The notes beneath the pieces are model-generated. The model saw nothing but the letters and a program-made list of their open reading frames with translations. It ran no database searches and had not been told where the DNA came from. From contig CAMAUY010000006.1 of assembly GCA_945861565.1 (NCBI GenBank), positions 22,211 to 86,210 on the forward strand: a DNA stretch of 64,000 bases. Reading direction: 5' to 3'. The translations under genes were made by a program, and so were the position numbers. Of this stretch, positions 40,532-47,844 are shown in pieces. Source of the DNA: Akkermansia muciniphila. Lineage in GTDB: Bacteria; Verrucomicrobiota; Verrucomicrobiia; Limisphaerales; UBA9464. Positions within the stretch are counted from its first letter, which is position 1. Every line of letters starts with the position of its first letter.

Positions 40532-41236
40532 CTACGGTGGTCTCGTCCGGGTATAGGGTTCTTCTTCCCAGTTGTTAGCGGGCCAGAAAAAACTGTCCAC
40601 GGCACCGTCATATCGCAGGGCGAGGTCACGAACGTTGGTCTTCTTCCATAAACCGGGTTGCAGTTTGGCCGTCCATCCGCTGTAGAGATGTCGATGCCAG
40701 GGGCAGGCAGCCACGATGAAGCGTCCCTGCCAGCGACTAATCTGATCCTTGAGCCACTGCTTTCCTTCGGGAGTCACTTGCTGAGACGCGCCCATGTGGT
40801 AGGCGTAACTGGTGGTGAATTCACCGAGCGTCCCGTAGTACTCCCACCCCAGATCAATGGGTATCCGTCCGCTCGTACGGTCGGATTTGCAGATAAATAC
40901 ATTGGTGGTGGAAAGATACTTAGAGCCCTCCAGGTAGTTGGTGCCGCCTCCGGCAAAACCGCTGCGAAGCCCTGGATTGACCAGGAAAAGCGGGGGACGA
41001 TCCCGATTGTCCTCCTGGTAGAGTCGGATTCCGAGACCCACCTGCTTGAGGTTGTTCACGCAATGCATTCGACGGGCCATCTCGGTCGAGCGACCGAGCA
41101 TCGGCAGAAGCATCGACGCCAGAATTGCAATGATCGCGATCACGACGAGCAGTTCGATCAGCGTGAAACCACGTGACGGTTTAGCCACAAGGCGGCACCG
41201 GAAGGGGCGCCGAAGAGAGCGGGAACCGGGATTCAT
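40532..41236 (-). CDS. Prepilin-type N-terminal cleavage/methylation domain protein
   Basis: [56 protein letters not shown]. Start at MNPGSRS (41236) or upstream 41278. Confidence 0.88.
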
Positions 41237-41300
41237 GGAGTAATCCAATCGTGCCGCGGCCCGAAAGGCAATACTCAAGCAACGCGTGCCTGGATGGCCG

Positions 41301-41469: not shown

Positions 41470-41730
41470 CTACCGCTGTGGTTTTGTCACTTCCCTCTTT
41501 TTCGTTTTCATCGTGGTAACCTTATAGACCTTTCCCTTCTTGTCGTAGGTGGTCCACTCGCCAGTTTGCTGGCCATTATCGAAGTGCCCCGAGCGCATCT
41601 TCGTTCCGTCTAATCGGAACCACTCCCAATACCCAGAGGGGACTCCGTTGGCAGTCTGGCCTTTGGCCCAAATGCTGCCGTCTTTGTGAGACTCGATGTG
41701 TTCCTCTTGGGGTGTTCTTTTGGTAGGCAT
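41470..41730 (-). CDS. Small YwqK/MORN-like repeat protein
   Basis: IESHKDGSIWAKGQTANGVPSGYWEWFRLDGTKMRSGHFDNGQQTGEWTTYDKKGKVYK; start at MPTKRTPQEEH (41730). Confidence 0.6.
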   Translation of the reverse strand: MPTKRTPQEEHIESHKDGSIWAKGQTANGVPSGYWEWFRLDGTKMRSGHFDNGQQTGEWTTYDKKGKVYKVTTMKTKKREVTKPQR

Positions 41731-42000
41731 AATGACGAAGTTCATTGGGCTGCATTTCGATATGCACGGTGCCTGATAGGAGTCCGCCTCGCAAGCGCTG
41801 GCGAACACGGCCGCATCGAAATTCGGGAAGCGCCAGGTCAAGGCCCCCTCAAGATCTGCCTTCGTAGCGTCGCGGATATCTGGAACAAAAGTTGAGGGGC
41901 CGGTGGCCGGTCTGAGCAGCGAATTGTCGGAGTTTGGAAATAACTCCACTCATCTGCAAGTGTCCGACATTGATGGGGCCCCCAAATCTGCGGATAAGGA

Positions 42001-42076
42001 GAACCGCGGATGAACACGGATTGACGCGGATAGAAAGGGCATGGAATCTGGGTCTATCGGCGTTTATCCGTGGTTC
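42001..42076. repeat. Inverted-repeat element, ATCCGTGG family (copy 2)
   Basis: GAACCGCGGATGAACACGGATTGACGCGGATA ... TCTATCGGCGTTTATCCGTGGTTC; near-identical element at 56796-56900. Confidence 0.8.
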
Positions 42077-42152
42077 TCATTCCCCAATAGTCGGTGGCGA
42101 CAAATTCAATTCTCATGGCAAACACAGTCTACTCGGAAATAGCGCTGCGTGC

Positions 42153-42719
42153 TCAATCTGAAATTCGATACCATAATGGCTTCACTGCTCGTCGCCTTGG
42201 CCACCGCGAATCGGCGAGAGAACCTCTCTCGATGACATCCGACGAACAATACAAGTAACCGGAGTGCTTCACGGGAAACCCGCCGCCGGTAAGAAACTCC
42301 ACGGTCAAAACGCCGTTGGTGCCCCGCTGTGCCAGGACGGTGTATGCCAAACTGCCCTCGGCCTGCGAGATGCGGCGCAACTCTGACGAAACCGGAACGC
42401 TGCCTGCCTCCATCTGCTTGATGAGGGCCTCGTAGTTCGGCAGCGCCCGCTGAAAAGTGAAGTGGCGAATGGCCGCCCCAACCACTGGCGCGAATACAAC
42501 CACCAACACGGACACGCCCACAGGCACAAGTGTCCGCCAACGCTCTCGCTGCCAGTGAGTGAACACCCGCACGGAACAGATGAAACCGAACACAAGCAGC
42601 CCAAGTGTCAACAGCATCGAGAAAAGCTGTGTGACCGGAGACGGGTGTGCCGCAAACGCTGCGAATACAAGAAACCAAAGTCCAGCGACCGCGAGCGTGA
42701 TTTTGGTAATGCGCGACAT
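42153..42719 (-). CDS. Hypothetical small membrane protein, putative integron cassette ORF
   Basis: MSRITKITLAVAGLWFLVFAAFAAHPSPVTQLFSMLLTLGLLVFGFICSV... with several TM stretches; ATG lies 5 nt after an attC-type GTTAGGC core site. Confidence 0.6.
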   Translation of the reverse strand: MSRITKITLAVAGLWFLVFAAFAAHPSPVTQLFSMLLTLGLLVFGFICSVRVFTHWQRERWRTLVPVGVSVLVVVFAPVVGAAIRHFTFQRALPNYEALIKQMEAGSVPVSSELRRISQAEGSLAYTVLAQRGTNGVLTVEFLTGGGFPVKHSGYLYCSSDVIERGSLADSRWPRRRAVKPLWYRISD

Positions 42720-42724
42720 ACGCC

Positions 42725-42817
42725 GCCTAACGCTGCTGCTCAGTGACGCGCCGCCGAGGGCATCCAGCATGGAACCACGACGCAACCGGCGCGTTCACTG
42801 GAGCAGCCTGGTTCGGC
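42725..42817 (-). other. attC-like (59-base element) recombination site
   Basis: Minus strand: GCCGAAC CAG GCTGCTCCAGTGAACGCGCCG ... CGGCGCGTCACTGAGCAGC AGC GTTAGGC. R' fits GTTRRRY exactly; R'' matches 6/7; the long arms pair with two extrahelical bases; unpaired 3-nt spacers. Confidence 0.72.
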
Positions 42818-42856: not shown

Positions 42857-42923
42857 CATTCGTGTGATTGGTGTGATTCGTGGGCAAAAGCAAATGCGGG
42901 AGTGCCCACGAATGACACGAATG
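42857..42923. repeat. Inverted-repeat element, ATTCGTG family
   Basis: CATTCGTGTGATTGGTGTGATTCGTGGGC ... GCCCACGAATGACACGAATG. Confidence 0.75.
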
Positions 42924-43033
42924 AAAACCTAGCGCTCTCATGTTGAACGTGGAGAGTGGACCGACCGAACAGATATTGGGCCAATCTTGGATATAGCCCA
43001 ACGCGGACTGATTTATTCTAGCCGGGTGCCGGC

Positions 43034-43079: not shown

Positions 43080-44903
43080 TCAGCTCTTTTTGAAGGCCTC
43101 GATATGCTCGATTCGGAATCGCCGCTTTTCGCCGATCTCGGTGAATTCGACTTCCTTGCCGACAGGCTGTCCAACGAACGCCTTCGCCAGGGGGGTCAGA
43201 TAGCTCAGGATATTCTTGTCGGGATCACCGTCCCAAGCCCCGAGAATGGTGTAGGTCTCAGGTTTGTTGGTGGTGAGGTCGAGGACGCGAATAATGGTTC
43301 CGGGGCTGACGACATCGAGTCGGGGATTATCGAAGTCGGTGCCGCGGGCGCGGTTCAATTCCACTTCGAGCTCATGTTTCCGGCGAGAAAGGACCTTTTG
43401 GGTTTCTTTGGCTGCCTTGTATTCCGCGTTCTCGCGGAGGTCCCCGTAACTGCGAGCGAGGGCGATATCCTTCACGTTGGCCGGAACCCGTTTCTGGACG
43501 AGCTCTTCGTACTCCGCTTTCCGCCGCTCGAGGCTCGGCCACGAAACGACGAACGTCTGGTCCTCTTTGTCCTTCTTTTGATCCCCGGTGATCATGCTCT
43601 GAATCGCCGGATATTGCTTAACGATACGGCCGAGGAGCGAGCGCTTATCCATGTCGTCAAACGCAGGGGATAACTGGAGATTGCGGGTCAAATCCTTAAT
43701 CACGTCGAAATCGGTGGACTCGATCAATTCCGGGAGCAGTTGTTGATCGGAGAGGATGAAATCGTGCAGGCGATTGGATTTCTTTTCGTTGAAGGCATCC
43801 CGTTCCATGGCCGTGAGCATGGCGCGGAAGACTTCCGGGGTGAACAGTTCCACGAACGCCTCGCTTCGTTCCTTTCCGAACCATAACAAGAGCTCGCTGC
43901 TCGCTCCGTGCTGGCCAATCAGTCGTGCGAGCGTGTCGTACAGCAGCTGGGTCTTCCCCTCCTGCATCAGCAGGCGGGCCGTTTCGCCGCAGAGCCGGGC
44001 GCCGCTGGAATTGAGAATTCCAACGAGCTGCGGACCCCATTCCGTTACGTGGTTCTTGAACGACTCGAGGGCGCGCCGTTGCCGAGGCGCAGAGGTTTCA
44101 TCAAAAAACGTATGGAGGCGCTGGCTATGAGCCCACACAGCGGCTTCGGTGGGGTGGGCCGGGTCGGCGGGGAGTCCCGCCGCCACTCGGACATCGTCCC
44201 GTGCAAAAATCCCCTCCAGAGCGAGCGAGGGCATCGTCGTCAGATGCGATTGGATGTCGGCATTCAGTACCCCGAGCACTTCGGTTACAACCGACTGCTT
44301 GTCTTGGAGGTCCCCCATGCACTTGGCGACCTCGAGCGCGACCGCAATGCGCGCCTTCAACCCCTTGGCGGTGCGGAACTCGGAGCCGAGGCGCGTCTGG
44401 AGCGACACCTCCGTTTCCTGGAGCAGGATCGGTTCTGACTTCTTGGCCGGGATGTTGAAGTGGCCGTCCTTTTTCATCTCGGTTCGGGCGGCTTCCCACC
44501 ATTTCTTCCAGTCCTCGCCGATAACATCCGGTACGAGGGCAGCCTGGATCTGATCGATAGTCGCGCGGTTATTGAAACTTCGCAGCACGAGGCGAACAAC
44601 GTCCAGATGGTGCAAGGCCGCCTGTTGTTTGAGGCCGGGGAGGTCCGTGGCCTTCCGTGCGAGGATATGCTCCTTGCCCACGGGCTTCAGGGATTCGGCC
44701 GCAAACGACAGGTCCATGGCGTGTCCTGCCTTCGAATGAAAATCGATCGACATCCGCCCGAGAACGACGTCCACGGTTCGGATCCGGCCAAAACCCCAGC
44801 TTTTGTGCACTCCAAAGCCACCTTGGACCAGAGCCATTAGCGGTTCGATGTGCCGGTGAGTGATCTTCCCAGTGGCGACCAGTTTCTCGAGTTCTTCCTT
44901 CAT
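43080..44903 (-). CDS. greA: GreA/GreB family transcription elongation factor with long N-terminal domain
   Basis: C-terminus: ALARSYGDLRENAEYKAAKETQKVLSRRKHELEVELNRA and TIIRVLDLTTNKPETYTILGAWDGDPDKNILSYLTPLAKAFVGQPVGKEVEF; preceded by about 440 aa not part of canonical GreA. Confidence 0.85.
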   Translation of the reverse strand: MKEELEKLVATGKITHRHIEPLMALVQGGFGVHKSWGFGRIRTVDVVLGRMSIDFHSKAGHAMDLSFAAESLKPVGKEHILARKATDLPGLKQQAALHHLDVVRLVLRSFNNRATIDQIQAALVPDVIGEDWKKWWEAARTEMKKDGHFNIPAKKSEPILLQETEVSLQTRLGSEFRTAKGLKARIAVALEVAKCMGDLQDKQSVVTEVLGVLNADIQSHLTTMPSLALEGIFARDDVRVAAGLPADPAHPTEAAVWAHSQRLHTFFDETSAPRQRRALESFKNHVTEWGPQLVGILNSSGARLCGETARLLMQEGKTQLLYDTLARLIGQHGASSELLLWFGKERSEAFVELFTPEVFRAMLTAMERDAFNEKKSNRLHDFILSDQQLLPELIESTDFDVIKDLTRNLQLSPAFDDMDKRSLLGRIVKQYPAIQSMITGDQKKDKEDQTFVVSWPSLERRKAEYEELVQKRVPANVKDIALARSYGDLRENAEYKAAKETQKVLSRRKHELEVELNRARGTDFDNPRLDVVSPGTIIRVLDLTTNKPETYTILGAWDGDPDKNILSYLTPLAKAFVGQPVGKEVEFTEIGEKRRFRIEHIEAFKKS

Positions 44904-47127: not shown

Positions 47128-47844
47128 GTGACGAACAAGAGCATCCGCCTCCAAGCGACACGCCGATCAGGGCGGGGGTTCACGCTGATTGAGCTACTCG
47201 TCGTAATTGCCATCATTTCGATCCTGGCATCGATGCTTCTGCCGGCGCTCAGCAAGGCCAAGGAAGCCTCCAGAAAGGCTCGTTGCCTTAGCAATCTCCG
47301 CCAGATGGGACTGGGCATGATGATGTACGCTGAAGACAACAACGGATCGATCCCGCGGGGAAACTTCCCAATCTGGTGGAAAATCTTCACACCGATGCTT
47401 GGCGGACAGAGCGAAAAGGATTATGCCAAGGTTCAGATATATACCTGCCCCAGTTATCCCGAAAAGAAGCAGCTCATTTGTTACGTGGACAACGCATGGA
47501 CTTTTAGCAGCCCGCGCGACAGGGTTGGTAAAGAGGTGACCGGAGTGACCCGCGTGGCCGCTTTTCAGCAACCTTCAGATTCAGTATATTTCGCCGACAA
47601 CGAAGACGGCCCGTGGAGACCTGTCATCAGGGCTCTGTCGATTAATGGCTCTGCGGAAGTGAACGACGTGTGGAATCCCAGCCACTTGCCCTATGCTCCG
47701 GGCGGAAAAATCCTAAACCGCGAGCGTCGTGTCGCGCGGGCACGACACGGGGCCGGCCCCAACTTGTTATTTTTTGACGGCCACGGAGCTTGGAAAAAGG
47801 CTCAGTTAATCACGGTCGATGACTGGCGCGAGCAACGTTGGTAA
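47128..47844 (+). CDS. Prepilin-type N-terminal cleavage/methylation domain protein
   Basis: [59 protein letters not shown]-terminal [12 protein letters not shown]. Confidence 0.92.

Follow-up and report, generated by a model that had tools for sequence, protein, structure and literature searches.

A probable stranded pair of integron cassettes with a single attC site in a Verrucomicrobiota-like chromosome

The window analysed here, a 64-kb stretch of a Verrucomicrobiota-like chromosome, very probably carries a stranded pair of integron cassettes with one attC site, that is, a single-attC CALIN. It lies on contig C6 of a draft genome (G000; 5.92 Mb, 262 contigs, 93% complete). On the minus strand, an ORF-less cassette (cassette 1, 42969-42731) with its attC is followed by a second one, cassette 2, whose ORF (42153..42719) is predicted to encode a membrane protein of 188 aa. 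The upstream chromosomal neighbour and left anchor of the locus is a GreA/GreB-domain gene, assigned with Pfam (43080..44903, minus strand, 607 aa), whose orthologues are kept in congeners; downstream, homology with a congener, G002, resumes in a chromosomal ORF at 41470..41949 (minus strand). The first-pass annotation, made from the letters alone, had taken the site for an isolated attC or CALIN-type remnant, a reading now supported by a covariance-model score, by boundary-matched copies, by an integron integrase encoded on another contig of the genome, and by the position of an ORF homologue within a cassette array. Proteins of the prepilin-like N-methylation/DUF1559 type, several of which occur in the genome, are encoded in the window at 40532-41278 and 47128-47844.

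Read on the minus strand, the attC (42725..42817, 93 nt) has the layout GCCGAAC-CAG-GCTGCTC(C)AGTGA(A)CGCGCCG ... CGGCGCGTCACTGAGCAGC-AGC-GTTAGGC, with R'' (GCCGAAC) at 42817-42811 and R' (GTTAGGC) at 42731-42725, and is directly followed by GGCGT and the ATG at 42719. Letters, boxes and spacing to the ATG are as the first-pass annotation had described them, as are the two extrahelical bases on one arm, a C and an A, both on the R'' side. Folded as single-stranded DNA, the exact 93-mer reaches -27.1 kcal/mol (z -3.5 versus shuffles). As fold energy by itself is weak evidence for an attC, we built an independent attC covariance model, R1. Related genomes were searched for integron integrases, the contigs around the matches were taken, and attC candidates in them were found with a simple script scoring R''/R' boxes and arm pairing. 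Fifteen attCs near integrases, all from other genera and none from G000 or its congeners, were aligned for training, some of them picked by eye for attC anatomy, so that selection is present. In this alignment, 94% of cells are paired and 11 of the 19 pairs show changes on both sides (compensatory), compared to 20-38% paired in slid controls, an excess that is partly expected, since one member of the training set served as the template to which the structure was drawn by eye.

With filters off, 42817-42725(-) obtains 53.2 bits (E=1.7e-13) under R1, as against 14.9 bits for the same bases on the plus strand, so that the score is strand-specific. It is also far above background, so that the first refuting outcome named by the first-pass annotation did not occur: the best unrelated match is at 13.1 bits, and no other convincing attC was found in the 64-kb window. 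Both the model and the fold give a hairpin in which R'' pairs with R' and L'' with L', the extrahelical bases all lying on the same arm. The count of GTTAGGC motifs in the window (3 versus 3.3 expected) is uninformative alone. Searches returned no Rfam family and no tRNA. Taken together with the family of copies described below, this confirms 42817-42725(-) as a genuine attC.

The attC is part of a unit that recurs throughout the genome. A BLAST search with the 93-mer, one of the follow-ups that the first-pass annotation had proposed, gave about 18 matches in G000, some of them partial and most from one cassette family, and a longer query recovered the full ORF-less unit (TTCGGT ... attC ... 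G, about 239 nt) on many contigs; in all, related copies lie on about 15 contigs. When the copies are aligned, their common sequence extends from G^TTCGG as far as the G^TT of the attC, and they diverge beyond these limits. At the 5' boundary, mean pairwise identity in 20-nt blocks is 0.85 and 0.84 inside and drops to 0.37, 0.29 and 0.24 moving outwards; at the 3' boundary it is 0.87-0.90 inside and 0.46, 0.30 and 0.25 outside. These values refer to copies with a recognisable boundary, the truncated or rearranged C250, C29, C164 and C17b being omitted from the 5' count. Cassette 1 thus runs from a G^TT to its own attC, and is found at several sites; the G^TT limits that the copies have in common would fit recombination by an integron integrase at this position, though only as an indirect sign. 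The copy on C173 directly follows a different attC and hence sits in an array, while two copies on C53 (L102, 2780-3280) form a 408-bp tandem arrangement. An imperfect inverted repeat inside cassette 1 (CATTCGTG...GTGGGCA / TGCCCACGAAT...CACGAATG; approximately 42868..42920) is kept in the copies, and cassette 1 has no match among phages.

In the circularised cassette, R'' GCCGAAC pairs with GTTCGGT, the sequence at which the cassette starts. The one-base mismatch that had been read in R'' is therefore only apparent, because the R' that it now faces is that of the next cassette. The attC does precede the membrane-protein ORF, but it belongs to the ORF-less cassette upstream and not to this ORF; and it is isolated insofar as it is the sole attC in the window, but not in a genome with about 18 attC matches. 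In a draft assembly of 262 contigs, the copy number and the isolation of the other copies are uncertain: repeated attCs break draft contigs, and some copies may belong to fewer, longer arrays. The window copy is exempt from this caveat, as it lies far from the ends of its long contig and is flanked by chromosomal genes. A promoter scan, which with sigma-70 says little for this phylum, gave no sigma-70-like match in cassette 1. Gene-less cassettes of Vibrio often serve the next cassette as promoters (PMC11014356), and by analogy cassette 1 might do so too, a role for which the scan leaves room.

Neither the window nor the remainder of contig C6 yielded a match to an integron integrase (IntI), in line with the earlier statement that no tyrosine recombinase is encoded in the window. 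"No integrase in view", however, holds for the window and not for the genome. The closest matches are on other contigs, foremost an IntI ORF of 486 aa, counted from its TTG, on C119 (12789-14249), which is extended at its N-terminus when compared with the TIGR02249 model. This IntI is full-length and scores 393 bits, above the curated TIGR02249 cut-off of 265, and the conserved motifs of tyrosine recombinases and of the IntI patch are recognisable in it by eye. An attI-like leader and a truncated ORF-less cassette of the same family lie divergently from it. On C179 (380-1776), an interrupted IntI pseudogene with its middle missing adjoins an attC about 97% identical to that of the window, followed by a 135-aa ORF. 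IntI fragments are present on C17 (degraded) and C19 (the 5' part), and C38 has kept nucleotide similarity to the attI-intI leader.

The predicted upstream crossover of cassette 1 lies between 42970 and 42969. The 24 nt preceding it (42970..42993, minus strand; ...TTGGCCCAATATCTG^TTCGG) rank first among the 1849 GTT sites of the window when compared with the leader consensus of four loci (C119, C19, C38 and C147); the match is short and the margin narrow (7 versus 6), under a scoring scheme that was chosen once and not optimised. The window shares the variant form of its leader with C17 and with the orthologous locus in G002. This resemblance is suggestive of, but does not prove, an attI or attI-like target.

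In G002, the GreA-domain protein is 98% identical to the window's and is followed by the same ORF-less cassette in the same place. Homology then stops at the attC (window TTAGGCGGCGTATG, G002 TATAGATCACC) and resumes at window position 41949; no ORF follows the attC of G002, and the 188-aa ORF is absent from both G002 and a second congener, G001. The search with the longer query did not find the cassette family in G001, where synteny does not extend past the GreA-domain gene, so that this genome has no empty site to show. Searching for empty sites with the flanks of two other copies led to contig ends or divergent regions, and to no clean empty site. Another contig of G002, C349 (L204), carries seven attC matches of a different, roughly 123-nt type within 5 kb. 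The integron family of the window is carried by a 6.4 Mb congener genome (CAMDJH010000016.1 and CAMDJH010000004.1).

Cassette 2 begins at T42730 (TTAGGCGGCGT-ATG), where the attC before it has its crossover point, and its gene has the same orientation. By eye, the encoded protein has several apparent transmembrane segments. It gave nothing above cut-offs in Pfam, NCBIfam or PADLOC and no match among plasmids, in keeping with its earlier description as an uncharacterised cassette gene. Homologues are sporadic: among the 319 other genomes of the order, 8 have one. The one in genome G300, 33% identical over 180 residues, is placed between attCs at 1376-1459 and 2060-2152 of locus L194, within a run of five R1 matches in 3.4 kb, and is thus a true cassette gene. 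The remaining seven have no R1 match within the flanks fetched, indicating that the ORF family is not always in cassettes. The C-termini of the homologues and of the window ORF align, so that the latter is probably complete. As had been noted before, no second attC follows the ORF stop, and R1 found none in the rest of the window. Cassette 2 is therefore at most a truncated cassette, which can no longer be excised as such and whose 3' end has no definable limit, while cassette 1 is in principle still excisable. Behind the ORF stop, a dispersed GCGGATGAACACGGATT-type repeat (GCGGATGAACACGGATTGACGCGGATAG...) occupies 42010-42080, and a similar repeat is found beyond the C29 copy.

As we reconstruct it, the course of events would start with a circular cassette recombining, via its folded attC, into attI or an attI-like G^TT after the GreA-domain gene. 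The ORF cassette would later have been inserted at the attC, or else lost in the congener, and the attC of cassette 2 itself would have been lost. We infer IntI as the agent of these insertions. Against a stranded pair speak the presence of only one attC at the locus, the lack of a clean empty site, the short attI-like match and the draft state of the genome.

The stranded pair could have come about in two ways. The locus may be the relic of a full platform from which intI was deleted, leaving attI and the cassettes behind, an origin whose chances we put slightly short of even. The attI-like 24 nt before cassette 1 fit this, as do other copies with similar leaders that keep an IntI (intact on C119) or attI-intI remnants (C179, C17 and C19). 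However, no intI remnant lies between cassette 1 and the stop of the GreA-domain gene, about 110 nt upstream, and the window matches the attI-intI region of C119 over 32 nt only, largely within the cassette. The other origin, insertion by IntI away from a platform into an attI-like genomic site of the attG type, is a serious contender that likewise does not quite reach an even chance. It is favoured by a genuine IntI elsewhere in the genome and by the many loci that have a copy with G^TT boundaries but no detectable intI, whereas the empty site was found neither in congeners nor with the flanks of two other copies, several copies adjoin IntI relics, and the assembly is a draft. Loot et al. (Nat Microbiol 2024) reportedly described cassette insertion at attG sites away from the integron. 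Both cases involve cassettes at genomic sites off the integron, but the sites in the present genome, at which insertion would have taken place, resemble attI.

Many dispersed copies with an internal inverted repeat would also be expected of a MITE mobilised by a transposase and containing an attC by chance. We judge this very unlikely, since both ends of the unit coincide with IntI crossover points and one copy sits exactly behind another attC; nor did inspection by eye, which was not systematic, notice a target-site duplication. Slightly less probable still is an ordinary conserved intergenic hairpin (a terminator, REP-like element or RNA) mimicking an attC, the case that the first-pass annotation had named as fatal to its reading: despite the REP-like inverted repeat in cassette 1 and terminator-like matches of 3 versus 1.3 expected, the strand-specific attC score without any Rfam family, the recurrence of the hairpin with sharp boundaries at unrelated loci, its absence from the congener G001 and its real cassette neighbours all argue against it.

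The closest known systems include CALINs, clusters of attC sites without an integron integrase (Cury et al., via PMC8618304), for whose origin off-target insertion and intI loss are among the proposals (PMC8618304). The locus resembles them in combining an attC and cassettes with no integrase nearby, but differs in its single attC and in that cassette 1 comes from a many-copy family of the same genome. IntegronFinder 2.0 by default requires at least two attC for a CALIN and drops single attCs without integrase as possible false positives, although single-attC CALINs can be real according to its authors (PMC9024848); with one attC, the locus stays below this default. Nor is it a complete integron, in which intI adjoins attI and attC. 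Like the ORF-less cassettes of Vibrio superintegrons (PMC11014356), cassette 1 has an attC but no gene and is placed before a gene cassette; unlike them, its family is spread over many contigs and not within one array. The locus shares the attC anatomy and a frequent length of 93 nt with the sedentary chromosomal integrons that Verrucomicrobiota relatives carry (L059, L069 and G300), and with that of G300 also the gene family of the ORF, but those are arrays, several of them beside intI, whereas the window has one attC without intI.

What we describe is mobile DNA of a known kind; unusual is the copy number of one gene-less cassette across separate contigs. Default settings discard single attCs of this sort; the present one is shown to be real by an independent model, boundary-matched copies, an integrase in the same genome and a true array that contains a homologue of its gene. 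Its cassette family further offers a natural set of junctions, outside the well-studied Proteobacteria, for asking about off-platform insertion by the integrase and about what its target sites look like. We tentatively consider, as possible rather than probable, that this ORF-less cassette has turned into a MITE-like non-autonomous element, which IntI, acting in trans on attI-like sites, would have dispersed to many chromosomal positions of one genome, and which would occasionally bring or receive gene cassettes. If so, a natural genome would here record the insertion of cassettes off the integron platform.
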